Shown: positions 5,111 to 34,900, counted from the stretch's first letter. The stretch is 64,000 nucleotides of DNA from Luteitalea sp. (GCA_009377605.1 WHTT01000001.1:62001-126000), one strand, 5' to 3'. The notes: generated from the letters alone by a model not told the origin. Numbers and translations: made by a program.

Positions 5111-6664
5111 ATGGCCGATCAGGAGCTGGACACGACCGTCGTCGAGGAGACGCGCGCGCTGGAGCCGACAGCGAAGCCGGCGGGGGCGTGCGTCATGGTG
5201 ATCTTTGGGGCAACGGGCGACCTCACCAAGCGTAAGCTGCTGCCTGCGCTGGTCAATCTTCATCAGGAGCACTTGCTCGACGAACCCTTTGCCATTGTCG
5301 GTGTCGGTCGCCAGGCCATGAGCGATGACGCGTTTCGCGACCGGATGCTTCAGGAGCTCGCGCAATTCGCCACGCGCCCGCTCTCGGCGAGCGAGAAGAC
5401 CTGGCTGTGCAAACGGCTGACGTATGTGAGCGGCGATACGCAGGATCCCGACCTCTACCAGCGCTTGGCCGAACACCTTGCGGAAGTCGACCGGCGCAAT
5501 CAGACGGAGGGGAGTTACCTCTTCTATCTCGCGATGCCACCGGCACTCTTCCTGCCGATATCCAAGCACCTGGCTCGCGCCGGGCTGGTGAGACAAGCGA
5601 ATACCCACTGGCGCCGCGTCGTGATCGAGAAGCCGTTTGGCCACGATCTCGCTTCCGCGCGAGACCTGAATCGCCAGGTCGCCACGTGTCTGGGCGAATC
5701 GCAGGTCTATCGCATCGATCACTACCTCGGGAAGGAGACGGTGCAGAACCTGATGATCTTCAGGTTCGCCAACGGCATCTTCGAGCCGGTGTGGAATCGT
5801 CGGTACATCGACCACGTGCAGATTAGCGTGGCGGAGACGGTCGGCGTGGAGCAGCGCGGCGGCTACTACGAGGAGGCGGGCGCGCTTCGTGACATGGTGC
5901 AAAACCACCTCTTCATGTTGCTCGCGCTCACCGCGATGGAGCCGCCGAGCTCTTTCGAGGCGGAGGCAGTACGCAGCGAGCGCGTCAAAGTGCTCGAAGC
6001 CATCGCGCCGTTCACGCCGGACGAGGTGCGCCGGTATGCGGTGCGCGGTCAGTACGGGGACGGGACAACAGCCGATGGTGAGCCCCTCTCCGCCTATCGC
6101 AGCGAGAGCCACGTGGCCCGCGACTCGAAGGTGGAGACGTACGCGGCGCTGCGGCTCATCGTGGAGAACTGGCGGTGGGCCGGCGTGCCCTTCTATCTCA
6201 GAACCGGCAAGCGGCTCCCGAAGCGCGTGTCCGAGGTCGCCATCCATTTCAAGAGCCCGCCATTCGTCATGTTCCGTAAGACGAAGGTCGACAGCCTTCG
6301 TCCAAACCTTCTCGTCGTCCGGATTCAGCCGGACGAAGGCATCTCGCTGCGGTTCCAGGCCAAGGTTCCGGATCAAAAGCTGCGACTGGGCACCGTCAAG
6401 ATGGACTTCCACTACCAGGACTACTTCGGCGCGAGCCCTTCGACCGGTTACGAAACACTGCTCTACGATGCCATGATGGGAGATGCGACGCTGTTCCACC
6501 GCGCCGACATCGTCGAGGAGGGCTGGGAGAAGGTCACGCCCCTGCTCGACGTGTGGCGCGAGGAGCCAGCCGCGGAGTTTCCGAATTATGCGGCGCACAC
6601 GTGGGGCCCAGAGGCCGCCGATGCCCTGCTGGAGCGCGACGGACGGAGCTGGCGCCGGCAGTGA
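5111..6664 (+). CDS. zwf: Glucose-6-phosphate 1-dehydrogenase
   Basis: A 517-residue cytoplasmic enzyme that oxidises glucose-6-phosphate to 6-phosphogluconolactone, giving NADPH. The coenzyme motif IFGATGDLTKRK is at residues 31-42, and the catalytic-site motif RIDHYLGKE at 201-209 contains the base H204. Length and motif order are normal for the family. The frame is open far upstream, through gnd, but ATG 5111 is where family homology begins. Upstream pgi and gnd with zwf make a complete set for the oxidative branch except 6-phosphogluconolactonase, which is not in the window. The stop TGA is the first TGA of a gtgacgggg/gtgacaagg array. Confidence 0.95.
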   Translation: MADQELDTTVVEETRALEPTAKPAGACVMVIFGATGDLTKRKLLPALVNLHQEHLLDEPFAIVGVGRQAMSDDAFRDRMLQELAQFATRPLSASEKTWLCKRLTYVSGDTQDPDLYQRLAEHLAEVDRRNQTEGSYLFYLAMPPALFLPISKHLARAGLVRQANTHWRRVVIEKPFGHDLASARDLNRQVATCLGESQVYRIDHYLGKETVQNLMIFRFANGIFEPVWNRRYIDHVQISVAETVGVEQRGGYYEEAGALRDMVQNHLFMLLALTAMEPPSSFEAEAVRSERVKVLEAIAPFTPDEVRRYAVRGQYGDGTTADGEPLSAYRSESHVARDSKVETYAALRLIVENWRWAGVPFYLRTGKRLPKRVSEVAIHFKSPPFVMFRKTKVDSLRPNLLVVRIQPDEGISLRFQAKVPDQKLRLGTVKMDFHYQDYFGASPSTGYETLLYDAMMGDATLFHRADIVEEGWEKVTPLLDVWREEPAAEFPNYAAHTWGPEAADALLERDGRSWRRQ

Positions 6665-6840
6665 CGGGGTGACAAGGTGACGGGGTGATGGGAGCGACAA
6701 CGTGATGGCGTGGCGCCAGGGCCGGCGTGCAGATCGGTCGACGTGCCCTGATCTTTTGACGCGGGGCCTGAAGGCCCCGCGCTACTACAGCTCGAACGAA
6801 CTCCCTCACCTGGTCACCTGGTCACCCGGTCACCTGGTCG
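6662..6840. repeat. Inverted gtgac(a/g)gg arms flanking a palindrome-containing core
   Basis: The left arm (6662-6690) holds gtgacgggg and gtgacaagg units on the + strand. The right arm (about 6805-6840) holds cacctggtcac units in the opposite sense. Between them is a gcggggcctgaaggccccgc palindrome (about 6771-6790) of a type also seen at 8366 and 34303. The zwf stop codon is part of the left arm. Apart from the start region of the next gene, nothing else is seen between 6665 and 6871. Confidence 0.8.
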
Positions 6841-6871
6841 CCTCTCGCGCCTTTTACCCCCGGAGGAGTTC

Positions 6872-8365
6872 GTGAGCCCTCTGGCCGTGGTCGTCTTCGC
6901 GTATCCGCTGGCGATGGTTGCCGTTAGCCTCTGGCGCTCTCGCAGGATCAAGAGCCACGAGGACTTCATGGTGGCCGGCCGCTCCGTTTCCGTACCGCTG
7001 CTGGTTGGGACGTTGGTCTGCACCTGGATCGGTTCCGGCTCCCTATTCGGCGGTGCCGGGTTGGCCTATCGTAGCGGTCTCGCCGAGCTGTGGTTCTCGT
7101 TTGGCGGCTGGGTGGGGCTCGTCGTCGCCTTCTTCATTGCGGGCCGCGTACGGCGGATCGCCCAGTACACGGTCCCTGATCTTCTCGAGCAGCGCTACAA
7201 CGCGACGGCTCGTGTGCTGGGAACGGTCGCGATCATCCTCGCTTACGTCACGATTGCTGCCTATCAGTTCCGCGGCGGCGGCTGGGTGCTGTCGATCGTG
7301 ACCGACGGCGCAATCGACGCGACGACCGGCCTCTACATCACCGCGGCAGTCATCGTGCTGTTCACGGCGCTGGCCGGCATGGTCTCGATCGTCACCGTTG
7401 ATATCCTCAACGGTGTCATCATCACGCTTGGCGTGCTCTTCGCACTCCCTTACATGGTGGTCCAGCTTGGGGGCGTCGCCAGCGTAGTGTCCCTGTTGCC
7501 AGCCGAGCACGTGACGCCCCTCGGCGGGCACAACGCACTGTGGGCCGTGGGCGTCGCCCTGCCCACGTTCCTCTTGCTGTTGGGCGAAAGCGGGATGTAT
7601 CAGAAGTTCTTCTCGGCCAAAGATGAGCGGTCGGCACGCCTTGCCGTCCTCGGGATGGTGGTCGGGATCGTGGTCATCGAAGTAGCGTTGGCGCTTCTCG
7701 CCATCACCGGGCGTGCCGCCTACCCGCGGTTGATGGAGGAGACGTCGATTGTTGGTCGTGCGGCGTCCGAGACGGTCATTCTCTACGTGGCGCGGCACGG
7801 CTTGCCGATGATCGGCGGAGCGATGCTGCTGAGCGCGGCGGTGGCCATCGTGTTGTCGACGGGCAACACGTTCCTCCTCGTGCCCTCGACCAACGCCAGC
7901 CGCGATATCTTCCAGCGGTTCATCAAGCCGGACGCCAAGGAAAAGCAGCTGATCAACCTGCAGCGGGCGTTCATTGTCATCTTTGGCGCGCTGGGGCTCG
8001 TGCTGCTGACGCAGTTCCAAACCGTGCTGTCCATGGCGCTCTATGCCTACTCGTTGGTCGGCGCGAGCCTCACGCCGGCGCTCTTGGCTGCCTTCCTGTG
8101 GAAGCGGGTGACGCCCCAAGGCGGGGTCGCCTGCATCGCCGGGGGACTGGGAGCGATCATCGGCATCGGGCTGCTCGGCCGGAGTGGCCTCGACTTCAGC
8201 ATGAACATTGGCGGCACGGACTTCGACTTCGCCAGCAGCGACTACATCGTCATCCCGGGCGTGATCGTCTCCTGTCTGCTCTTGATTGTGGTGAGCTTGT
8301 TGACCAAGCCGTCACCGCGCGAGAAGTGGGAGCCGTTCTTCTCGACGCCGGCGCGAGGAGCCTGA
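6872..8365 (+). CDS. Sodium:solute symporter family protein (SSS)
   Basis: A 497-residue integral membrane protein with about 13 hydrophobic segments, beginning with an N-terminal helix and the typical SSS block VCTWIGSGSLFGGAGLAYRSG near residue 50. A later GESGMYQKFFSAKDER segment is typical of the family. Members couple Na+ entry to uptake of sugars, amino acids, pantothenate or choline; the substrate cannot be read from the sequence. The GTG start at 6872 is chosen because a strong GGAGGAG lies 5 nt upstream. It lies downstream of zwf on the same strand but is separated by a repeat, so co-transcription is uncertain. Confidence 0.88.
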   Translation: MSPLAVVVFAYPLAMVAVSLWRSRRIKSHEDFMVAGRSVSVPLLVGTLVCTWIGSGSLFGGAGLAYRSGLAELWFSFGGWVGLVVAFFIAGRVRRIAQYTVPDLLEQRYNATARVLGTVAIILAYVTIAAYQFRGGGWVLSIVTDGAIDATTGLYITAAVIVLFTALAGMVSIVTVDILNGVIITLGVLFALPYMVVQLGGVASVVSLLPAEHVTPLGGHNALWAVGVALPTFLLLLGESGMYQKFFSAKDERSARLAVLGMVVGIVVIEVALALLAITGRAAYPRLMEETSIVGRAASETVILYVARHGLPMIGGAMLLSAAVAIVLSTGNTFLLVPSTNASRDIFQRFIKPDAKEKQLINLQRAFIVIFGALGLVLLTQFQTVLSMALYAYSLVGASLTPALLAAFLWKRVTPQGGVACIAGGLGAIIGIGLLGRSGLDFSMNIGGTDFDFASSDYIVIPGVIVSCLLLIVVSLLTKPSPREKWEPFFSTPARGA

Positions 8366-8490
8366 AGGCGCCTCGCGCCCGCGGCCGCCTCGGCGAGGCC
8401 GCCGTACTTTTGTCCGCCGAAGCGCGGAGCGCGAAGGCGGAGCAGACAAGATCTTGTCCACGCCGGCCAACATCTTGACTGCGCGACCCG
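8366..8490. repeat. GC-rich palindromic intergenic repeat
   Basis: The convergent gap between the symporter and the epimerase gene contains a gcctgaaggcgcc start, a ggccgcctcggcgaggccgcc palindrome and a tccgcc...ggcgga inverted pair around a ctccgcg/cgcggag stem. The sub-motifs recur at 6771-6790, 34303-34335 and 34921-35023, so this is one of a dispersed REP-like family. No gene is seen here. Confidence 0.7.
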
Positions 8491-9555
8491 CTAGAAGAAC
8501 TTCTTGATCAGCCCTAGCGCGCCTTGACGCCAGGGCAAACGATGTGAGACACCGGAGGCCTCCGCAAACTCGTGGCGGTGAGCGATGTACCACTGGAAGT
8601 TGCGGATGAGAGCCTCCCGATTGGAGTACTTCGGCGTAAAGCCCAGAACGTGCGTCGCTTTCTCGATACCGACGAACGAGTCGTGACACGCCGTTTCGTA
8701 GACCCACTTGTAAAGCGGTGAAAGGCCTAGCTTCTCGAGCGCCCGAAGACTCCACACGGCCGGCGCAGCGGGGAAGCCGATGATTCGCTTGCCTTTACCC
8801 GCGTAGGTCAGCACCGCTTGATAGTCCTCGCGCATCGTCGCAAATTCCTTGGCGCCGATGTTGAACGTGTCGTTCACGCGCTCGCGTGGCAGCGTGAGGC
8901 ACAGATGGATCACCTCACAGAGATCTTCGACATCGAGGAGCTGGTAGCGGTTGTGCCCGCGGCCGATCATGGGAAAGTGACGACCGTCGAGCGCCCAATC
9001 GTAGAGCAGCGCAAACACGCCGAGGCGCTCGGGTCCGACAAACGACTTCGGCCTGAGAATCGGCACGCAGAGGCCCTTGGCGCGCTGCTCCAGTGCCACC
9101 ATTTCGGCCTGCACCTTGGCCTGGCCGTACGGACCAACCCCCTCGAGGCGATCGTCTTCGACGACCGGATGATGGTCCGGGATGCCGTAGACCGCGGTCG
9201 AGGAAATGTGGACCGCACGTTCGACGTCCGACCGCCGTGCGACCTCCAACACCAGGCGCGTGCCCTCGACGTCCGTCGTGTAGATGTCCCTGGAGCTGTA
9301 GAGCGGCAGCGCTGCCGCGCAGTGCACGACGTGTGCGCATCCCGCGATGGCGCGTTCCACGTCGGCCCGGACGCGAATGTCCCCCTGGATGATGCTGATC
9401 TCGCTGGCGATATCTGGATAGGTGAAGTCAGTGATGTCGAGGGAAACGAGATCGTACCCGCGCGCGTGGAGATAACGAATGAGATTGATGCCGAGAAACC
9501 CCGCTCCGCCGGTCACGAGGACGCGCGGACGGTCCTGTCCGTTGAGATCCGTCAT
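8491..9555 (-). CDS. NAD-dependent epimerase/dehydratase (extended SDR)
   Basis: A 354-residue extended short-chain dehydrogenase/reductase. The N-terminal Rossmann glycine motif is TGGAGFLG; the catalytic Ser/Tyr/Lys elements are SSTAVYG and YGQAK. Such enzymes act on nucleotide sugars or on sterol/isoprenoid-like substrates; the exact substrate is not identifiable. ATG 9555 is preferred over the upstream in-frame GTG at 9624, because GAGGG precedes it and homology starts there. It lies 16 nt downstream of the YggX-like gene on the same strand, so the two probably form a small operon. The C-terminus ends in a basic/aromatic tail LIKKFF. Confidence 0.88.
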   Translation of the reverse strand: MTDLNGQDRPRVLVTGGAGFLGINLIRYLHARGYDLVSLDITDFTYPDIASEISIIQGDIRVRADVERAIAGCAHVVHCAAALPLYSSRDIYTTDVEGTRLVLEVARRSDVERAVHISSTAVYGIPDHHPVVEDDRLEGVGPYGQAKVQAEMVALEQRAKGLCVPILRPKSFVGPERLGVFALLYDWALDGRHFPMIGRGHNRYQLLDVEDLCEVIHLCLTLPRERVNDTFNIGAKEFATMREDYQAVLTYAGKGKRIIGFPAAPAVWSLRALEKLGLSPLYKWVYETACHDSFVGIEKATHVLGFTPKYSNREALIRNFQWYIAHRHEFAEASGVSHRLPWRQGALGLIKKFF

Positions 9556-9571
9556 GCATTCCCTCGTCCGT

Positions 9572-9874
9572 TCAGCGCTGACCTTCGGGCACATAGCCGG
9601 GTGGTGGCGCGGCGCTCTCACCAAAGAAAAACTCCTCCATGTAGCGCGCCATGAGATCTTGTGCCTCCTTCTGCCAGGGCATTAGGCGGTACTCATTGAG
9701 GATCATGCGCATGCGCTCCTCCCACATCTGCCACGCCTCGGCCGACACGTTCTCGTAAATGCGCCGGCCGAGCTCGCCGGGCCACGGTGGCTCGTCCAGA
9801 CCCGGCAGCTCGCGCCCGAGCTTCACGCACTTCACGAGGCGCGGGTTGGCGGGTTCCGGTGTGTCTGCGCTCAT
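9572..9874 (-). CDS. YggX-like Fe(2+)-trafficking / oxidative damage protection protein
   Basis: A 100-residue cytoplasmic protein of the YggX family, linked in enterobacteria to Fe(II) handling and protection of Fe-S enzymes from oxidants. It carries the family features RLVKCVKLGRELPGLD near the N-terminus (with the conserved Cys) and NVSAEAWQMWEERMRMILNE followed by a LMPWQKEAQDLM segment. The start at 9874 is chosen by homology; the frame is open to 9910. The Shine-Dalgarno is weak. The SDR gene follows after 16 nt. A YggX partner for an SDR is not an obvious functional pair. Confidence 0.88.
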   Translation of the reverse strand: MSADTPEPANPRLVKCVKLGRELPGLDEPPWPGELGRRIYENVSAEAWQMWEERMRMILNEYRLMPWQKEAQDLMARYMEEFFFGESAAPPPGYVPEGQR

Positions 9875-9887
9875 AAGGACTACTCCC

Positions 9888-9907
9888 GCCCGACTTGAAG
9901 GTCGGGC
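9888..9907. repeat. Diverged GCCCGACyT..AGGTCGGGC palindrome
   Basis: The 20-nt palindrome gcccgacttgaaggtcgggc is a single copy of the same element found three times at 1126-1228. It lies just upstream of the YggX-like gene. Confidence 0.75.
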
Positions 9908-10388
9908 CAATCAGGTGACATGGATCGGAAGGCGAAAGAGGCCGTTCTCAAGGGTTCTGGTGAGCAGACCGCTCTCATCTGCTTCAGCGCGCTTCCGGTA
10001 CTCATTCTCACCTATTCTGGGCAGTCGGTGAAAAGGATCGAGGCTCCGGATGTGCGCATGGCGGGCATGTATGTCGTCTCGGCATGCCATTCTTACGCGG
10101 TCGTGTAGGGAAACCCTTCGGCGCGGGCGACGAGCATGCCCGGCAAGTGAAATCGAGGCAGGCTCTTCACCGGGCCTGACGCCGTCGGACGCTGTGCTCG
10201 AGGTGGCACGGAAGTTGTAGCACTTACGGGCACGAGTCGCCTGGGGCCGGTGTGCGCGGCATGCGAGTGCCCTGGGTCGGTCAGACCTTAGCTAGGCCTC
10301 CGACACGGCTTCTCCGTGGCGATGGCAGGTCGACGATCGGGCGCGCACGACGAGCGCGCTCGCAGTTCTGGTTCATGGAGGTGCGGAC
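9908..10388. other. Intergenic region without a supported gene
   Basis: About 480 bases between divergent genes. A 62-codon open frame at 9920-10108 has no good ribosome site and no recognisable composition, so I do not call it. A sequence TGGCACG-N4-TTGTA at 10204-10219 resembles a sigma-54 -24/-12 promoter (consensus TGGCACG-N4-TTGCW) about 170 bases upstream of the KGG-protein gene, but one key base deviates. Confidence 0.5.
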
Positions 10389-10673
10389 GTGAACGACGAG
10401 CTCAAGACGCTGAGTCCGACAATGCCGGGTGAGCCGGCGCGGCGCAAGGAGCGTCGAGGCTTTGCTTCGATGTCTCGCGAAAAGCAACGGGAGATTGCCA
10501 GTAAGGGCGGGCGCATGGCGCATCTGAAGGGCACGGCCCATGAGTGGACGCCCGAGGAAGCACGCGTGGCCGGACGCAAGGGTGGCATGGTGAGCCGCGG
10601 AGGCCGCGGCCGGCTCACGGGGCCGGGTGAGGCCGAAGAGGGGACAGAGAGCTCGGCCGGCCCAAGCGTTTAA
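10389..10673 (+). CDS. KGG-motif (con-10/YciG-like) stress-associated small protein
   Basis: A 94-residue hydrophilic, basic protein with two copies of the KGG-type repeat: RGFASMSREKQREIASKGG and EWTPEEARVAGRKGG. The repeats match the short motif of general-stress proteins related to fungal con-10 and bacterial YciG/GsiB. Such proteins are small and probably unstructured; their role is tied to stress or desiccation, and the mechanism is unknown. The GTG start at 10389 has GGAGG 7 nt upstream. The stop TAA abuts a hairpin repeat beginning at 10678. Confidence 0.82.
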   Translation: MNDELKTLSPTMPGEPARRKERRGFASMSREKQREIASKGGRMAHLKGTAHEWTPEEARVAGRKGGMVSRGGRGRLTGPGEAEEGTESSAGPSV

Positions 10674-10677
10674 GGCT

Positions 10678-10864
10678 CGAAACTTGACATAGCTCGTTAG
10701 CTGGTCGGTCAAGTTTCCTCCCCAGCGCCCTCATGTGGTGGAAGGGCGCTGGGGACCCGATTCGAGGTGTGGGATCGCGCCCTGGCGGATGCGGTGGCTG
10801 GCACGTTGCTGCCGTACGGCAGCTGTTCTCGTGTGGCGTCGCATACCCTCCCCCGCCAGGGCGC
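10678..10864. repeat. Hairpin cluster with aaacttgac stem and flanking inverted repeats
   Basis: Stem AAACTTGAC (10680-10688) pairs with GTCAAGTTT (10708-10716). A second stem of 11 bp pairs 10720-10730 with 10744-10754 (CCCCAGCGCCC). A 12-nt inverted pair, gcgccctggcgg and its complement, lies at 10777-10788 and 10853-10864. The aaacttgac hairpin is shared with the dispersed elements at 21037-21134 and 59793-59891. Beyond this, 10865-10978 contains a ttcgacgagctcaggc-type intergenic motif and leads into tamA with no clear ribosome site. Confidence 0.75.
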
Positions 10865-10978
10865 GCTCCCGCGCCCTTCGACGAGCTCAGGCCGAGCCCT
10901 GACAAAAGGGGCCTGTTCCCCTCTGCCGTGGTCGTTCGCTCTCTTGTGCAGACCGCAATCCCAGGGCAACATTGACGC

Positions 10979-12934
10979 GTGGCGCACGAGGGCATCCCTC
11001 CTCCGCGACGTCTGGCCACACCGGCCTGCCGATCGGCTGGCCAGGTGCTTGCCTACCTCATTGCGGCATGGCTTTGTGCCTTGCCCGCCTCGGCGCAGGA
11101 GGAAACACTCCACGTCGAGCGCCTTAGTTTCACCGGTGTTCAGCACGTCGATGTCGACGACCTCGAGTCGGTCCTGGCCACCCGAGAGAGCAGTTGGCTA
11201 CCGTGGGGGCGTAAGCACCGGTTGGTGTCCGACCAGCTCCAAGCCGACCTTGGACGCATTGCCGCGTACTATGCTGACCGCGGTTACCCACAGGCGCGCG
11301 TCACCCGCTACGACGTTCGCCGCGAGGAAGGGGCTGGCAACGGCGTTTCGATCACGATCCATGTAGACGAGGGTGAGCCGGTCCTCCTGGAGGAGGTGCA
11401 ATTCTACGGCTTCGAGTCCTTATCGCCGGATGACATGGCACGCCTGAAGGCGGCGGTCCCGCTTCGCGTCGGTCAGCCTCGCCGCGTCACTGACCTGCAG
11501 GCGAGTCGCAGCCGCGCGCTCGCGTTGCTGCGCGAGCGCGGATACGCGTACGCGACGGTCGATACGCTCGAAGCGCAGGGCTCGGCTCCCGCGCGCATCT
11601 ACGTCATCCTGGCCGCCACAGCGGGACCACAGGCGCGGTTCGGTCCGATCACCATCGCGGGCAACCACACACTGCGCGGTCGCAACGTCCTCGAGCAGCT
11701 CGTCTTCAAAGAAGGTGAGCCTTACCAATGGAGCAAGCTACAGGACAGCCAACGCCGCCTGTACCAACTCGAGCTCCTGCAGTTTGCCAACATCGAAACG
11801 ACGCGCGGAGGCGAGGGTCAGCCGGTGGACGTGCCGGTCCAGATCACCGTCAGCGAAGGGAAGCCCAGGCGTCTCAGCCTCGGGTTGGGATTTGGCAGTG
11901 AAGAGAAGGCACGCGCGACGCTGAACTGGCGGCATGTCAACTTCTATGGCGGCGCCCGGAAAGCGGGCATCGAGACGAAATTTTCGTCGCTCGACCGTGG
12001 CGTGCGTGTGAGCTTCGAGGAACCCTCGTGGGGACGGTATGGTCTTGTGCTGTCGACGAGCGTTCAGTCGTGGTTCTCAGACGAAACGGCTTATGACCTG
12101 GCGACCAGCGGCGGCCGCGTGACGCTCACCAAGGAGCTCGGTTGGCGGGATCCGGTGCGTCAGCGCCAGGCCACGACGACGGCGTCGCTGAGCCTGGTGA
12201 ACGAGTACGAGGACTACCAGATCAGCAACGAAGCGCTGTTGGATCCCGAGTTCCGCGACACGCTCATCGCGCTCGGTCTCGATCCGACGACCGGAGAAGG
12301 GGAGGGCGTGCTCCGCGCGATCGCGCTCGATTTCCAACACAACACCACCGCGAACCTCCTCAACGCCAATAGCGGGTACATCGCTGCGGTTCATCTCGAG
12401 CAGGCAGGACGATGGGTCTCCGGTGACTGGGACTACTTCGAGCTCACGGCCGAAGGGCGCTTTTACAGGCCGCTCGCGGGCCGGGCCGTTCTGGCGGTGC
12501 GTGGCCGTGCCGGGAGCTTCTTCGGCGCCGATGACATCGAGCTGCACGTCCCATTTTTCAAGCGCTATTTTCTGGGCGGCTCCGGTAGTCTGCGTGGGTG
12601 GAACCGATTCCAGGTTGCGCCGCTCAGCAGGGACGGCTTTCCGTTGGGCGGCCATGCGGTGTTCGAGAGCGCGGTCGAGCTGCGCATGCCGGTCATGGGG
12701 AACTTTTCGATGGTCGCGTTTCTCGATGCAGGCAACGTCTGGGCGAATTCGTGGGACTTCCGGCTGAACGACCTTCGCTACGCGGCTGGCCCAGGCCTTC
12801 GCTATCAAACACCCATAGGGCCCGTCCGTGCCGATGTCGGTTTCCAACTGAATCCAATACTAGGTCTGAAGGTGGATGGCGAACCGGAAACACGGAACTG
12901 GCGGCTGCATTTCAGCATTGGGCAAGCATTCTAA
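10979..12934 (+). CDS. tamA: TamA-like Omp85 outer-membrane assembly protein
   Basis: A 651-residue outer-membrane protein that, with TamB, forms the translocation and assembly module. An N-terminal hydrophobic stretch ending in ALPASA (residues about 24-39) looks like a signal peptide. About three POTRA-like segments follow (roughly 42-320) and then an Omp85 beta-barrel. The barrel contains the conserved loop-6 signature GSGSLRGWNRFQ, and the chain ends with a terminal aromatic (GQAF*), as expected for BAM substrates. The GTG at 10979 is the first start of the frame; an internal start nearer the signal peptide is possible. The gene directly upstream of tamB supports the assignment. The stop TAA runs straight into a ttcgagg array. 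Confidence 0.88.
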   Translation: MAHEGIPPPRRLATPACRSAGQVLAYLIAAWLCALPASAQEETLHVERLSFTGVQHVDVDDLESVLATRESSWLPWGRKHRLVSDQLQADLGRIAAYYADRGYPQARVTRYDVRREEGAGNGVSITIHVDEGEPVLLEEVQFYGFESLSPDDMARLKAAVPLRVGQPRRVTDLQASRSRALALLRERGYAYATVDTLEAQGSAPARIYVILAATAGPQARFGPITIAGNHTLRGRNVLEQLVFKEGEPYQWSKLQDSQRRLYQLELLQFANIETTRGGEGQPVDVPVQITVSEGKPRRLSLGLGFGSEEKARATLNWRHVNFYGGARKAGIETKFSSLDRGVRVSFEEPSWGRYGLVLSTSVQSWFSDETAYDLATSGGRVTLTKELGWRDPVRQRQATTTASLSLVNEYEDYQISNEALLDPEFRDTLIALGLDPTTGEGEGVLRAIALDFQHNTTANLLNANSGYIAAVHLEQAGRWVSGDWDYFELTAEGRFYRPLAGRAVLAVRGRAGSFFGADDIELHVPFFKRYFLGGSGSLRGWNRFQVAPLSRDGFPLGGHAVFESAVELRMPVMGNFSMVAFLDAGNVWANSWDFRLNDLRYAAGPGLRYQTPIGPVRADVGFQLNPILGLKVDGEPETRNWRLHFSIGQAF

Positions 12935-28894: not shown

Positions 28895-30190
28895 CTACTC
28901 GTAACGCAGCGCTTCGACGGGGTCGAGGTGCGCCGCTGTCCGCGCAGGGTAGACGCCAAAAACCAAGCCGACGACGAGCGACACGAAGAAGGCGAGCAGC
29001 ACGGAGGTTGGCGTGATGATGGTGGTCCAGCCCGCGAAATAGGCGACGAGCTCCGAGAGGCCAAAACCGACGAGGACGCCGATCAGGCCGCCGGCGCAGG
29101 AGATGATCGTCGCCTCCATGAGGAACTGCCGGACAATCTCGCTGCGGCGTGCGCCCACGGCGCGCCGGACGCCAATCTCACGGGTGCGCTCGAGCACACT
29201 GGCGAGCATGATGTTCATGATGCCGATGCCGCCCACGAGCAACGAGATCGAGGCAATGGCCACCATGACCATCTCGAAGATGCGGCGGGTGCGCTGCTGC
29301 TCGGCCAGGAGCTGTGCCGGCACGTAGACGGAGAAGTCGCCTGCGCCTTTGTGCGAGTCGTTCAGGAGGCCACGCACGATGCCGGCCGCCCGCGGGCTCT
29401 GTTCTGGCGATTGGAGCTGCACGTAGATGGCGTCAATCTCGTCGCGAATCCGGGTCTTGTTGTCCTCGAGGCGGAGCATAGCTCCTGCAAGCGGCACGTA
29501 AATGAGGTTGTTTCTATCCTCTGACGGTAAGCCCGCGACCTCGCCTGGAGCGCTGAGCTGCGGTCCGGCGACCCCGATCACGCGGAACCACTGTTCGTGG
29601 ATCTTCACGAATTGGCCAAGCGCAGAGCGGCTGCCGAAGAGGTCGCTCGCAACCGCCTCGCCGAGCACGCAGACTGGCGAGGCGCGCGTCGCTTCATCCT
29701 CGTCGAAGAAGCGCCCCGATGCCATGCGGAGGTTGCTGATACGCCGATACACGGGAAGCACGCCATACACGGTAGGTGTCTCGCGCCCTGGCCTGGGCAA
29801 CACGGTGGATGGCGTGAACCGTTTGCGTGGCGAGATTGCCGTAACCCCTGCGAGGTTTGCGTCGATCAGTCTCACATCGCGAAATGTGAGCCCGGGCGAG
29901 ATCTGACGCACTTGGATGAACTCTTCCTGGTCGGCGGCCTCCCGCGCCTCGACGATGAGGTTGCGTACGCCGAGGTTCTCGATGAACTCGAGGACATGCT
30001 GCTGCGCACCGGCACCGATCGAGAGCATCGACACGACGGCGGCGACGCCGCAGATCATGCCGAGCATCGTGAGCAGCGAGCGCAGCTTGTGGAGACGCAG
30101 GTTCTCGAGACCAAGACGCAAATCGGGCACGAGGCGCGTGAGCCCTGTGGTGCGCGATTTATCGACCGGTGTGGCTCGGTCGCTCATCAT
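28895..30190 (-). CDS. FtsX/MacB-type ABC transporter permease without ATPase domain
   Basis: A 431-residue permease with one transmembrane helix near the N-terminus (about residues 36-62), a periplasmic MacB core domain, and three C-terminal helices (near 290-315, 340-365 and 385-410) ending in VYPARTAAHLDPVEALRYE. This is the MacB/FtsX fold that extrudes substrates from the periplasm through an adaptor and TolC in related systems. No N-terminal or adjacent ATP-binding domain is present. The start overlaps the upstream adaptor stop by 4 nt (ATGA), so it is translationally coupled as the last gene of a four-gene operon. Confidence 0.9.
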   Translation of the reverse strand: MMSDRATPVDKSRTTGLTRLVPDLRLGLENLRLHKLRSLLTMLGMICGVAAVVSMLSIGAGAQQHVLEFIENLGVRNLIVEAREAADQEEFIQVRQISPGLTFRDVRLIDANLAGVTAISPRKRFTPSTVLPRPGRETPTVYGVLPVYRRISNLRMASGRFFDEDEATRASPVCVLGEAVASDLFGSRSALGQFVKIHEQWFRVIGVAGPQLSAPGEVAGLPSEDRNNLIYVPLAGAMLRLEDNKTRIRDEIDAIYVQLQSPEQSPRAAGIVRGLLNDSHKGAGDFSVYVPAQLLAEQQRTRRIFEMVMVAIASISLLVGGIGIMNIMLASVLERTREIGVRRAVGARRSEIVRQFLMEATIISCAGGLIGVLVGFGLSELVAYFAGWTTIITPTSVLLAFFVSLVVGLVFGVYPARTAAHLDPVEALRYE

Positions 30191-31503
30191 GTCCCCAGGG
30201 GCGCGGTGGGAGTGGATGGGGTGGGACTGTTTCGCGATGCGGGGGCCTCCTCGGGATTGACCAACGCGACCTCCAGGCCCTCCTCTAGCCCCTCCAGCAC
30301 AGCCCGCGTCTCCGTACGGCGCACGACCTTCACCTCATGCGCCTCGAAGCCACGAGCGTTGCGTACGTAGACCACAGAAGCACCTCGTTGATCGAAGACT
30401 GCCTGGCGCGGGACGTGTACCACGTCTTCGAGCGGCGCAGCCGCGACCTCCACACGGAGCGTTTGCCCGGGCTTCAGCGCGGTGTGCTCTCCTTCGAGCT
30501 CGAGCGTGACGTCGAACTCACGCGCGGTGCCGGCGTTCCACCACTTACCGCGGCTTGCGACCGCGCCAACGGTCTTCACGTGCGCCCGATACGCCCGTCC
30601 GCCGCGGCTGTCGATGGAGACCTTGGCGCGCTGCTTGGGCGCCAAGGTCGCGCCAACCGACTCTGGCGCCTTGGCGAGAACCTCGAGCTGCGTCACATCG
30701 AGCAGCTCCGCGATCGGACGGCCCGGCGAGGCCATGTCGCCCTCCGCGTACTCAGGCAGGACAATGCCCGGGTAGAAAATGCCACCGGCGGCGTCCCGAT
30801 TCGCGAGCACCGACAGGACCCCATCGAACGGGGCGACGATCGTCATTTGCGCGATGTTGCGCTCAGCCTCCTTGATGGCGATGAGCGCTTTGTTGCGCTT
30901 CTCACGTGCGACATCGAGCGCCGCGCGGCTCGTAGTCGAGCGCTCACGGACATTCCGTTCGAGCTCTTCCAGCTTGCGGCCCGCCTCTTCGAGAGTGAGC
31001 TCGTTCTTGCGCGCCTCGACCTTGCCAACGAGCTCGTTCCCGCGGATATCCAGCTCCGCCGCCCGGACGTCGTAGCGCGCGCTCAACAAATCGACCTCGT
31101 CCTTTGCCGCTTGCACGGCGTTGTCCGCCTCCAGCTTGTCGATTTCATACTCCGCTTCACGCAGCTGCGATTGCGCCTGCCCCAACTGATACTCCTGGTC
31201 GGCGGTATCGAAGCTCAGTACGAGGTCTCCCTTCTGCACTGCAGTGCCCGTTGGCAGCAGCGATAGGATCCGCATCGTTCCCGGAACGGGAGGCGCCTGG
31301 ATCATCGTCGACTTGGTCGTACGGAGCTCGCCCTTCAGGTGCACGGTTTGATCGAGCGAGCTTCGCTCGGCAGGCGCGAACGGGATCTCGGTGCTGCGCG
31401 AGCGGAGCTTCCCAAGCCCGGCGGTGACGGCGCTCGCGACGACGACCAAGCCTGCGGTTCCCGCCAGCAGCCACACGAGGCGTTGTCGCCGTCTCGGGCT
31501 CAT
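30187..31503 (-). CDS. Periplasmic adaptor (membrane fusion) protein, third in operon
   Basis: A 438-residue HlyD/MacA-type adaptor with an N-terminal transmembrane anchor (LVWLLAGTAGLVVVASAVTAG) and a first barrel-sandwich half around GTMRILSLLPTGTAVQKGDLVLSFD. A long coiled-coil hairpin covers roughly residues 105-215. The second half follows at MTIVAPFDGVLSVLANRD, then a beta-barrel and membrane-proximal domain. Such proteins link an inner-membrane pump to an outer-membrane duct. It overlaps both neighbours by 4 nt. A single chain of this family normally suffices as a hexamer; here three different paralogues are co-encoded. Confidence 0.88.
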   Translation of the reverse strand: MSPRRRQRLVWLLAGTAGLVVVASAVTAGLGKLRSRSTEIPFAPAERSSLDQTVHLKGELRTTKSTMIQAPPVPGTMRILSLLPTGTAVQKGDLVLSFDTADQEYQLGQAQSQLREAEYEIDKLEADNAVQAAKDEVDLLSARYDVRAAELDIRGNELVGKVEARKNELTLEEAGRKLEELERNVRERSTTSRAALDVAREKRNKALIAIKEAERNIAQMTIVAPFDGVLSVLANRDAAGGIFYPGIVLPEYAEGDMASPGRPIAELLDVTQLEVLAKAPESVGATLAPKQRAKVSIDSRGGRAYRAHVKTVGAVASRGKWWNAGTAREFDVTLELEGEHTALKPGQTLRVEVAAAPLEDVVHVPRQAVFDQRGASVVYVRNARGFEAHEVKVVRRTETRAVLEGLEEGLEVALVNPEEAPASRNSPTPSTPTAPLGT

Positions 31504-32771
31504 TGGCCCCCTCCTGTTCCGCTGTTCTGGTCAGGTGCTCGTAGCGCGACGCGTTCTCCTGCCGATACGCCGGAGGCGATCGCGACGATTTCCTGGCCGC
31601 GCCGTGCGACGCGTACGTGACGCCTGACGAATCCGTCGGACGTTTGCACGTAGACCGTCGGTTGGCCGTCGCGCTGGAAGAGCGCGTCGGTCGGGATGAT
31701 CAGCGCCTTGGGCGCGCGGTCGATGATCAGGCGCGCGGTCGCCGACATGCCGGGCCGCAACCGAGGGTCCACCTTCTCGAGCAGGATCGTGACGTCGAAC
31801 CGTCGCGGCGGCGGCCAGGTGCCCGTGATCTCCGGCTTCGCAAGCGTGCTGAGCTGGCTAATGCGTCCCGGAAGCTCTACGCCGGGCAATGCCTCGACCC
31901 GGACCATCGCCCGCAGGCCCTCGGAGAGACGGCTGCGATCACTCTCGTCGATGCGCGCCAACACCGTGACCTCGGAGAGATCCGGCAAGGTGACGATGGC
32001 CGCGCCTGACCAGGCACTGTCACCAGGACGGAACTCGCGCGCACCACCGCTGCCGGGGCTGGAAGCGCGATAGTTCGGCTGGATGGAGACGATGCCATCG
32101 GTCGGCGCACGCAGCGTCAGGGCAGAGAGATTGTGCTCCGCCAGGGAGACATCCGCTTCGACCTTCGTTTGCTTTTGCTGCAGCGCCTTGACGTCGGCCT
32201 CGGTTGTCGCGTGATCGGATTCGACGCTCACCGTGGCCTCATCTAACAGCTGTTCGGCGTCCGCCAGCTTCAGCTTGTTCTGCTCGCTCTCGATCCGTGA
32301 CAGGACGTCGCTCGTCTCGACGTCGAGGCGCGACCGCTCGACGTTGTAGTTGGCGCCGAGCTGCGTGGTCAAGCTCTCCTCCTCGGCGATGCTACCCTGC
32401 GCGCGGGCCCTCTCGATCTCCGCACGCGCTTGCTTCAGCTCCGAGCGTTTTTCATCGAGCGTACGCCGGACGGTGCTGACGTCGAACTCCACGACAACAT
32501 CGCCTTTCTTGACCGGACTGCCGTTGGGCGCAAGCTTGATGATTTGGAGCTCGCCGGCTCGGGATGGCGCGTTCAGCACGAGAGACCGGATCGGCGAAAT
32601 CTCGCCCCTGAGTGTCATGCGATCCGCGAACTCACCCCGCTTCACTTCCGCGGTCGGGACAGTGGCGCGAATGACGTCGGCAGACGAGCTGCTGCATCGC
32701 GCTGAAGCAACCGCGATCAGACTCCCGACCGCGAGGATGCCTAGACATCTGCGTGGCCAACGCCGCCTCAC
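31500..32771 (-). CDS. Periplasmic adaptor (membrane fusion) protein, second in operon
   Basis: A 423-residue HlyD/MacA-type adaptor with an N-terminal hydrophobic leader (CLGILAVGSLIAVASA) and lipoyl-like halves around AGELQIIKLAPNGSPVKKGDVVVEFD and LTLRAPTDGIVSIQPN. A coiled coil of about 100 residues separates them, followed by barrel and membrane-proximal domains. A Cys after ASAR could be a weak lipobox, but the -1 Arg makes lipidation doubtful. It overlaps the upstream and downstream adaptors by 4 nt each. It is a distant paralogue of the neighbouring adaptors, not a recent copy. Confidence 0.88.
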   Translation of the reverse strand: MRRRWPRRCLGILAVGSLIAVASARCSSSSADVIRATVPTAEVKRGEFADRMTLRGEISPIRSLVLNAPSRAGELQIIKLAPNGSPVKKGDVVVEFDVSTVRRTLDEKRSELKQARAEIERARAQGSIAEEESLTTQLGANYNVERSRLDVETSDVLSRIESEQNKLKLADAEQLLDEATVSVESDHATTEADVKALQQKQTKVEADVSLAEHNLSALTLRAPTDGIVSIQPNYRASSPGSGGAREFRPGDSAWSGAAIVTLPDLSEVTVLARIDESDRSRLSEGLRAMVRVEALPGVELPGRISQLSTLAKPEITGTWPPPRRFDVTILLEKVDPRLRPGMSATARLIIDRAPKALIIPTDALFQRDGQPTVYVQTSDGFVRRHVRVARRGQEIVAIASGVSAGERVALRAPDQNSGTGGGQ

Positions 32772-34033
32772 TCCGATGCTCCTTCGCTGGGCGGCGTCAT
32801 CACCACCCTATCGTCGGCCGTGACACCCTCGCCAATCACGGCTTCCATGTCAGTCAATGCCGTCACCTCGACCGGACGCCAGTCGATGGCCCCCTCGCCG
32901 GTTGCCACCGCGATCTCGTAGCCCGCCGATCCTGCTCGCCGAATCGCGCTGCGCGGGACGCTCAGGGCTTGCCGCCAGCGTGCAACCTCGACATCGACCG
33001 CTGCAGAGAGATCTGGAGCCACGCGCCGATCTGGCTGATCGAGTGCGAACACGGCCACGTACGATCGCACGGCTGTCGAGAGCGTGCTGGTCAGGCCGAC
33101 CGGTGCGAGGCGCTCCAGCCGTCCCGGATATGTATGGCCTGGGAACGCATCGAGCTCGATCCGGGCCGCGAGCCCCCTGCGCAAGCCCGGGAGGTCGCCC
33201 TGATTCACCCTCACGCGGACACGCATCTGCTTGGGATTGACGACCTGCATCACCGGTCGTCCGGGCCACATCTCGTCACCCTCCTGGATGTCGCTCATTC
33301 CACCGCCTCGCCAGTTGGTCTTGAGCACCACGAGGCCGTCCATCGGGGACGCCACAATCATGCGCTCGGCGTTCTCTTCGGCCTGGCGAAACTCCGCCGT
33401 GGCCCGATCGCGCTGGACCTCCAGCATCTTCAGCTCCGCCTGCGCCGCTTGGCGCTTCAAGGCAAGGCTTTCCTGCAGCTGCTCATGGCGCGCTTGGGCG
33501 GCTTCGAACGCGTTCGTATTCTTCTCGATCTCGATGACCGGCAGCATCTCGTTCTTGAGCGTCTCGAGCCGAGCCGTCTCCGCCGCGTTCTTGGCGTTTT
33601 CCAGCTCGGTCAGGTCCTTCGCTCGCAGCTCCGCCTGCTCCGCCTTCTTCTTCTCGATTTGCGCGACCAGATCCTGCCATTCCGCCCGCTTCTCGAGCGC
33701 CGCATTGATCTGCTCCTGACGATCGAACTCGACGAGAATGTCCCCAGGCTCGACACGCGCGCCATTGGCCATCAGACGTGTGATGACGAGGCCACCGCTT
33801 TGCGCACCCGAGAGCCGTGGTGTTGCGATGGGCGTGGACTCCACCGCTTCGACGAGCCCGTGCAGGCGAACCGTCTGGACGACATCTTTGCGTGTCACGA
33901 CACTGGTCCTGCCGCCATGCCCGCCAGCGGCCGGCTCCACGGCGCGCGCGCCGGAACATCCAGCCGCGAGGGCGGTAATAACTGCAGAGCTAAGAAACGA
34001 TCTGGCTGTGCGAAAGCGGACAGTCATAGCCAC
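32768..34033 (-). CDS. Periplasmic adaptor lipoprotein, first in operon
   Basis: A 421-residue HlyD/MacA-type adaptor. The N-terminus has a lipoprotein signal with lipobox ALAAGC near residue 25, so the mature protein is probably lipid-anchored. The barrel-sandwich halves are at GGLVITRLMANGARVEPGDILVEFD and MIVASPMDGLVVLKTN, with a predicted coiled-coil hairpin of about 120 residues between, rich in Lys/Glu/Ala/Gln. As the first gene it has the whole 34034-34291 gap for its promoter. The 3' end overlaps the next adaptor by 4 nt. In ADOP and MacAB systems a single adaptor is usual. Confidence 0.88.
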   Translation of the reverse strand: MAMTVRFRTARSFLSSAVITALAAGCSGARAVEPAAGGHGGRTSVVTRKDVVQTVRLHGLVEAVESTPIATPRLSGAQSGGLVITRLMANGARVEPGDILVEFDRQEQINAALEKRAEWQDLVAQIEKKKAEQAELRAKDLTELENAKNAAETARLETLKNEMLPVIEIEKNTNAFEAAQARHEQLQESLALKRQAAQAELKMLEVQRDRATAEFRQAEENAERMIVASPMDGLVVLKTNWRGGGMSDIQEGDEMWPGRPVMQVVNPKQMRVRVRVNQGDLPGLRRGLAARIELDAFPGHTYPGRLERLAPVGLTSTLSTAVRSYVAVFALDQPDRRVAPDLSAAVDVEVARWRQALSVPRSAIRRAGSAGYEIAVATGEGAIDWRPVEVTALTDMEAVIGEGVTADDRVVMTPPSEGASE

Positions 34034-34291: not shown

Positions 34292-34900
34292 TTACAAGCC
34301 CTGAAGGCTTCCGGCGCGGCCTCGAGGCGGCCGTAGCGCGCTGTGCCGGAAGCAGGTGATCACATGGTCATTGACCAGACCGACCGCCTGCATGAACGCA
34401 TAGCAGATCGTCGAGCCCACGAACGAGCACCCTCGCTGCCGGAGGTCACGACTGAGTGCATCTGATTCCGACGTTTGCGCCGGAATGTCCGCCAGCGAGC
34501 GCCAGCGGTTGACGCGCGGCCGACCGTCCACGAAGCGCCACAGATACGCATCGAAGCTACCGAGCTCCTCGATAATTGTCAAAACGACGCCCGCGTTCTT
34601 GATGGCGGCTTCGATCTTGAGGCGGTTCCGCACGATACCCGCGTCGCGCAGCAAGGCGGCCTGTTTACGCCGCTTGTACGACGCCACCGTCGCAATATCG
34701 AAGTTGTCGAACGCAGCCTTGTAGGCCTGGCGCTTGCGCAGAATCGTGATCCAGCTCAGGCCGGCCTGCGCACCTTCTAGCACCAGCATCTCGAACAGGT
34801 GGCGGTCGTCGTGTTGAGGCACACCCCACTCGGTGTCGTGATAGGCGATGTAGAGGGGGTCGGTGCCCGCCCAAGGGCAGCGCGCGACAGACTTCATCAT
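34292..34900 (-). CDS. tag: DNA-3-methyladenine glycosylase I
   Basis: A 202-residue base-excision repair enzyme that removes 3-methyladenine. Tag motifs are clear: the N-terminal zinc Cys in RCPWAG, the block YHDTEWGVPQHDDRHLFEML, then EGAQAGLSWITILRKR, and the C-terminal SFVGSTICYAFMQAVGLVNDHVITCFRH with the remaining zinc ligands (C and H). Start codons at 34900 and 34897 are adjacent; either is possible. The last 15 residues (after CFRHS) are not family-like and are encoded by a GC-rich palindromic repeat that also provides the TAA. Confidence 0.92.
   Translation of the reverse strand: MMKSVARCPWAGTDPLYIAYHDTEWGVPQHDDRHLFEMLVLEGAQAGLSWITILRKRQAYKAAFDNFDIATVASYKRRKQAALLRDAGIVRNRLKIEAAIKNAGVVLTIIEELGSFDAYLWRFVDGRPRVNRWRSLADIPAQTSESDALSRDLRQRGCSFVGSTICYAFMQAVGLVNDHVITCFRHSALRPPRGRAGSLQGL

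Follow-up and report, generated by a model that had tools for sequence, protein, structure and literature searches.

How could an exporter be built from three different periplasmic adaptors and a single permease, and where would its energy come from if the operon encodes no ATPase? The question is raised by a 64,000-nucleotide stretch of Luteitalea sp. DNA (GCA_009377605.1 WHTT01000001.1:62001-126000), referred to below as the window, in which four open reading frames (ORFs), here A1, A2, A3 and PERM, occupy the minus strand from 34033 to 28895, exactly where a first-pass annotation had placed them (Table 1). We consider it probable, at roughly 0.64, that this operon belongs to a MacAB-like exporter with a mixed adaptor ring, probably containing A1, A2 and A3 twice each, that receives ATP hydrolysis in trans from an ATPase encoded on another contig (C23) of the same genome.

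Three adaptors and a permease kept as a unit

A permease-based scan of contigs revealed 15 acidobacterial loci with the order A1-A2-A3-PERM, two of them cut by contig ends and one belonging to a Luteitalea metagenome-assembled genome (MAG); in these loci each gene is most similar to its positional counterpart. When a PERM profile is run over 396 Acidobacteriota, an orthologue class is found in 17 genomes (about 668-799 bits, the match in G274 being split) and a sister class scores 408-497 bits, the two classes together accounting for 90 of the 396 genomes, while other MacB permeases score below about 360 bits. Exactly three same-strand adaptors precede the permease in 53 non-redundant loci from both classes, these being the loci with a complete upstream region; those with fewer adaptors are truncated at the end of a contig or locus, L106 excepted. 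The synteny across Acidobacteriota that the first-pass annotation had proposed to look for is therefore present, and the recurrence of the quartet in the same order in every complete relative is far beyond chance. L106 (G275:C24), alone among sister-class loci, has room upstream (about 3.7 kb) but only a partial adaptor match before the permease.

The arrangement also occurs in Pseudoalteromonas. The chromid of P. piscicida 2515 carries five overlapping genes in the order ATPase-adaptor-adaptor-adaptor-permease, and these five genes are also found in Pseudoalteromonas sp. NC201. In the adaptor tree these adaptors fall with positions 1, 2 and 3 of the sister class, respectively (99%). Two ordinary MacB-like operons on proteobacterial plasmids, the two that were inspected, each combine a single adaptor with a linked ATPase.

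Within the window, the HlyD_D23 and HlyD_3 domains of Pfam are found in A1, A2 and A3 alike, and pairwise identity is 26% between A1 and A2 and 30% between A2 and A3, in agreement with the earlier description of three clearly different HlyD/MacA-type adaptors. AlphaFold2 (AF2) models of A1 and A3 (mean predicted local distance difference test, pLDDT, 83.4 and 82.5) both have MacA of the MacAB-TolC complex (9qgy/5nik) as their top PDB match, and the alignment of A1, A2 and A3 is free of gaps across the hairpin region. A tree of 108 adaptors places every position in a separate clade within each class, with 99-100% support in the Shimodaira-Hasegawa-like approximate likelihood ratio test (SH-aLRT), so that the three adaptor genes are no interchangeable copies of one another.

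Adaptors 1 and 2 are also found fused. In three loci whose sequences were read (L113 in G025, L118 in G338 and L142 in G067) they form one ORF of about 780-840 amino acids (aa), in which the second adaptor begins without a signal peptide, and in L138 (G192) two adaptor domains likewise share one frame. Three families or more show the fusion; L127 was set aside, because what looked like a fusion there is an overlapping open frame. No other sequence evidence speaks as strongly for adaptors 1 and 2 working next to each other at a 1:1 ratio.

PERM matches MacB_PCD (1.9e-40) and FtsX (9.5e-22), has no nucleotide-binding domain (NBD) and aligns with MacB residues 271-669, that is, with MacB minus its NBD, so that its identification as a MacB-like permease stands. 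The major coupling helix of MacB is the region that contacts the NBD, and the PERM segment ERTREIGVRRAVGA corresponds to it (PMC8277102). Across 13 diverged loci, the columns of the PERM alignment average 72% identity. ADOP proteins (TIGR03434) are acidobacterial duplicated FtsX-type permeases classed as orphans; PERM scores 134.9 bits with that model, below the cut-off of 622.3, and is a protein of 431 aa, not a duplicated one of about 800 aa. With the lolCE equivalog model (TIGR02212), used as a test for LolCDE, it scores 37.8 bits, below the cut-off of 362.

The gene junctions are less uniform than first supposed. All three overlaps in the window are indeed 4 nucleotides (nt) long, two reading ATGA and one GTGA rather than ATGA throughout, and among relatives only the A3/PERM junction keeps this length almost everywhere, A1/A2 and A2/A3 being variable. 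Because the strict overlap is not conserved at every junction, it is weak evidence for the fixed stoichiometry that had been read from co-translation. The first adaptor is probably a lipoprotein, as had been proposed: A1 has a lipobox (AAGC, Cys26), which some orthologues lack.

Table 1. Features of the operon, in window coordinates.
Feature	Position	Strand	Details and basis
A1, MacA-like adaptor, position 1, probable lipoprotein (Cys26)	32768..34033	-	421 aa; GTG start, in-frame alternative ATG at 34027; ORF, Pfam, AF2 model
A1 alpha-hairpin, aa 106-224, arms of 58+59 residues	33362..33718	-	AF2 model
A1/A2 overlap, 4 nt, GTGA	32768..32771	-	sequence
A2, MacA-like adaptor, position 2, hydrophobic N-terminal anchor	31500..32771	-	423 aa; GTG start; ORF, Pfam, alignment
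A2/A3 overlap, 4 nt, ATGA	31500..31503	-	sequence
A3, MacA-like adaptor, position 3, N-terminal transmembrane anchor	30187..31503	-	438 aa; ATG start; ORF, Pfam, AF2 model
A3 alpha-hairpin, aa 101-219, arms of 58+59 residues, equal in length to that of A1	30847..31203	-	AF2 model
A3/PERM overlap, 4 nt, ATGA, near-universal among orthologues	30187..30190	-	sequence and relatives
PERM, MacB-type permease (MacB_PCD + FtsX), no NBD	28895..30190	-	431 aa; ATG start; ORF, Pfam, alignment to MacB
PERM residues 334-347, ERTREIGVRRAVGA, MacB major coupling-helix region (NBD contact), nearly invariant	29150..29191	-	alignments

Flanking genes are common only to the window and its two closest relatives, and neighbouring genes were dropped as a clue to the substrate for lack of conservation beyond close relatives. 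A two-component or a lipid-export role was also considered, and no evidence for or against either emerged. The upstream neighbour (34292-34900) encodes a 3-methyladenine DNA glycosylase (Adenine_glyco), with similar sequence only at the two closest loci, L033 and L034. In the sister genus (L034, L090, L091 and L093) a second FtsX permease, scoring about 170 bits, stands right after PERM, giving three adaptors and two permeases. In L099 (G136), L130 (G161) and L111 (G088) the three-adaptor operon is arranged head-to-head with a divergent adaptor-permease-permease operon, which in L099 and L130 carries its own ATPase.

An ATPase linked in relatives and unlinked in the window's genome

The operon itself encodes no ATPase. 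The window contains no match to PF00005, the ABC (ATP-binding cassette) ATPase family; on the contig the closest one starts at C1:43326, about 47 kb away, and no ABC ATPase was found in the fetched flanks (up to 10 kb) of the 15 quartet loci. In this sense the first-pass annotation was right. It does not describe the wider system, as seven sister-class genomes (G382, G168, G400, G067, G338, G349 and G041) have a MacB-type ATPase immediately downstream of the permease and one stands first in the Pseudoalteromonas operons. An adjacent ATPase, which the first-pass annotation had named as grounds for refuting its reading, is present in the sister class and Pseudoalteromonas, though absent from the closest orthologue group, and the suggestion of a system powered by none finds no support. 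The Pseudoalteromonas ATPase is closest to the clade described below (54-59% identity, with all best BLAST hits from that class), though its position in the tree is unsure because of a long branch.

A profile built from four of the linked ATPases gives one clear best match in the window's genome and in four others (374-384 bits, the next at 341 or less). In the window's genome this match is C23:15352-16044, at 382 bits. No FtsX permease or adaptor lies within about 8 kb of it, and the same holds for its counterparts in G001, G004, G076 and G350. Linked and unlinked ATPases, that of C23 included, form one clade (SH-aLRT 94) in which the linked ones appear at two places, and checked genomes with a linked copy have no separate unlinked one. 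By profile and tree, the C23 ATPase is an orthologue of the ATPase found in the operons of other lineages. Of the options raised at first, an ATPase encoded elsewhere is thus the best reading, with this protein as the specific candidate.

At locus L081 on C23 (4414-8784) the unlinked ATPase has two genes near it, both named by eye: on the upstream side one for a probable myo-inositol-phosphate synthase, and on the downstream side one for a probable methylated-DNA methyltransferase. The window's genome also contains more than 150 FtsX-domain permease matches, many in ADOP-like open frames of about 800-1000 aa. Two further loci there have no ABC ATPase in 19 kb, one with an adaptor and a single permease (L066, C46) and the other with an adaptor and two tandem permeases (L067, C64).

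A proposed mixed adaptor ring with ATP hydrolysis supplied in trans

We propose that the operon would encode those parts of a MacAB-like (type VII ABC) exporter that lie in the membrane and the periplasm. Its three obligate, non-interchangeable adaptors would assemble into one mixed ring or tube, for example with two copies of each, seated on a PERM dimer, and the C23 ATPase would hydrolyse ATP in trans. The constant number of three adaptors, their position-specific clades and the natural fusions of adaptors 1 and 2 together favour an obligate hetero-oligomeric adaptor, making the tube of three subunits envisaged in the first-pass annotation the best reading. The hetero-oligomer, its 2:2:2 composition, the direction of transport, the substrate and the outer membrane partner are all matters that we infer.

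Several observations weigh against this proposal. The pairing of PERM with the C23 ATPase is a prediction from sequence. ATPases of the linked and orphan clade occur almost throughout the phylum (323 of 396 genomes at a threshold of 1e-100), and because of this their co-occurrence with the operon (81 of 90 operon-bearing genomes, 242 of 306 others, and 17 of 17 in the orthologue class) carries little weight. In nine operon-bearing genomes the best match falls short of that threshold, at 262-336 bits; G006, a 90%-complete MAG of the window's genus that has the quartet, yields no clear copy, its best match reaching 295 bits; and in some genomes the ATPase adjoins another adaptor, with or without a permease of its own. 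For the adaptors, the RLS motif is found near the hairpin turn in none of 41 orthologous adaptors and is absent from the A1 tip, which makes classical TolC docking doubtful; about ten OEP-type outer membrane proteins are encoded elsewhere in the window's genome. Furthermore, orthologue-class adaptors group apart from those of the sister class (98% in the adaptor tree), and an approximately unbiased (AU) test against joining the first positions of the two classes, confined to those positions, gives p = 0.09, a result compatible with one triplication or with two.

The ATPase partner might be a different one. PERM could be energised by one of the roughly ten other MacB-class ATPases, such as that on C26, or by several interchangeably, an alternative that we regard as unlikely. 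Locus L073 (C26, about 6226-11520) contains an adaptor and a MacB-type ATPase with no FtsX permease found, followed, as judged by eye, by genes for an NtrC-type regulator and a histidine kinase. Sharing of an ATPase among ABC transporters is known from MsmK (PMC4519317), and the lack of a clear C23-type copy in G006 would also fit. Set against this, the permease-less C26 ATPase falls in a different clade (99% in the ATPase tree), and ATPases linked to the operon are found only within the C23-type clade. Adaptor-ATPase pairs like that on C26 occur in other Acidobacteriota (L164 and L166-L169).

Somewhat less likely still is that the adaptors do not mix, each forming a homo-hexamer that alternates with the others on one permease or serves other transporters, so providing a choice of substrate or outer membrane channel. 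Identities of merely 26-30% are compatible with such separate rings, and the many FtsX-type permeases and OEP-type proteins in the genome offer possible partners. However, the number of adaptors is always three, with positions kept across the phylum and in Pseudoalteromonas, their hairpins are of equal length, and in several lineages adaptors 1 and 2 are made as a single chain.

That PERM works without ATP hydrolysis, as a mechanotransmitter or scaffold comparable to FtsX in its signalling role or to the unexplained ADOP orphan permeases, seems improbable to us. No member of the closest orthologue class has a linked ATPase, and orphan FtsX-type permeases are very numerous in Acidobacteriota, but the coupling-helix motif of MacB is nearly invariant in PERM and related operons carry the ATPase.

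A decayed remnant, with the quartet disappearing after loss of the ATPase gene, is very improbable: the orthologue class is patchy (12 of 297 genomes by an A2 profile, one borderline) and a frame break interrupts A2 in one MAG, but PERM is well conserved over the diverged loci and all four ORFs are open in nearly all loci. The interrupted gene, in the Luteitalea MAG (L033, 7163-8688), is split by a frame change that reflects either assembly error or recent damage.

Relation to known exporters and significance

The likeness to MacAB-TolC lies in MacA-type adaptors with a long alpha-hairpin and in a permease that aligns to the membrane part of MacB. The differences are that three distinct adaptor genes take the place of one, as seen here at the level of genes, that the NBD is neither fused to the permease nor encoded in the operon, and that the adaptor tips lack the RLS motif. 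Separate MacB-family permease and ATPase subunits are shared with the split systems DevBCA, YknXYZ and VarDEF (PMC8277102, PMC5595328); those work with a single adaptor and a linked ATPase, in contrast to three adaptors and an unlinked ATPase here. More than one adaptor type per pump and natural adaptor fusion are both on record, in TriABC-OpmH and the fused dimeric adaptor DSY0927 (PMC4446572, PMC8277102), TriABC-OpmH being a resistance-nodulation-division (RND) rather than an ABC system and having two adaptors, not three. A single ATPase, MsmK, energises several permeases encoded elsewhere (PMC4519317); these are sugar importers, whereas PERM belongs to an exporter family and its ATPase pairing is a prediction.

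With ADOP, a family taken here by its description, the operon shares FtsX-type permeases in the same phylum, and it differs in that PERM is single and has three dedicated adaptors. A comparison of ADOP counts with ATPase presence (ADOPs above cut-off in 6 of the 13 genomes that have the ATPase and in 2 of the 13 that lack it) was weak and was not used.

To our knowledge, the known ABC tripartite pumps use a single adaptor type. Our search of the open-access literature, with subscription papers and preprints outside it, found no description of a three-adaptor ABC exporter and at most two adaptor types per pump. We therefore file the operon as a new variant among MacB-type tripartite exporters. 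A bolder proposal, which we put forward only tentatively and hold to be doubtful as a whole, is that of an ancient five-component ABC exporter with an obligate hetero-hexameric tube of three adaptor types and no RLS-based docking to TolC, whose ATPase may have become a phylum-wide shared energiser in Acidobacteriota, serving PERM and perhaps many orphan FtsX and ADOP permeases.

A pump that retains three adaptors, each in its own position, throughout a phylum and in a gammaproteobacterium as well would demonstrate that specialised subunits can make up an adaptor tube, and such subunits would allow their roles to be separated genetically. The unlinked, near-universal ATPase offers a way to test directly what powers the many orphan FtsX-type permeases of Acidobacteriota, and the linked five-gene version in Pseudoalteromonas piscicida opens the question to a cultured host.

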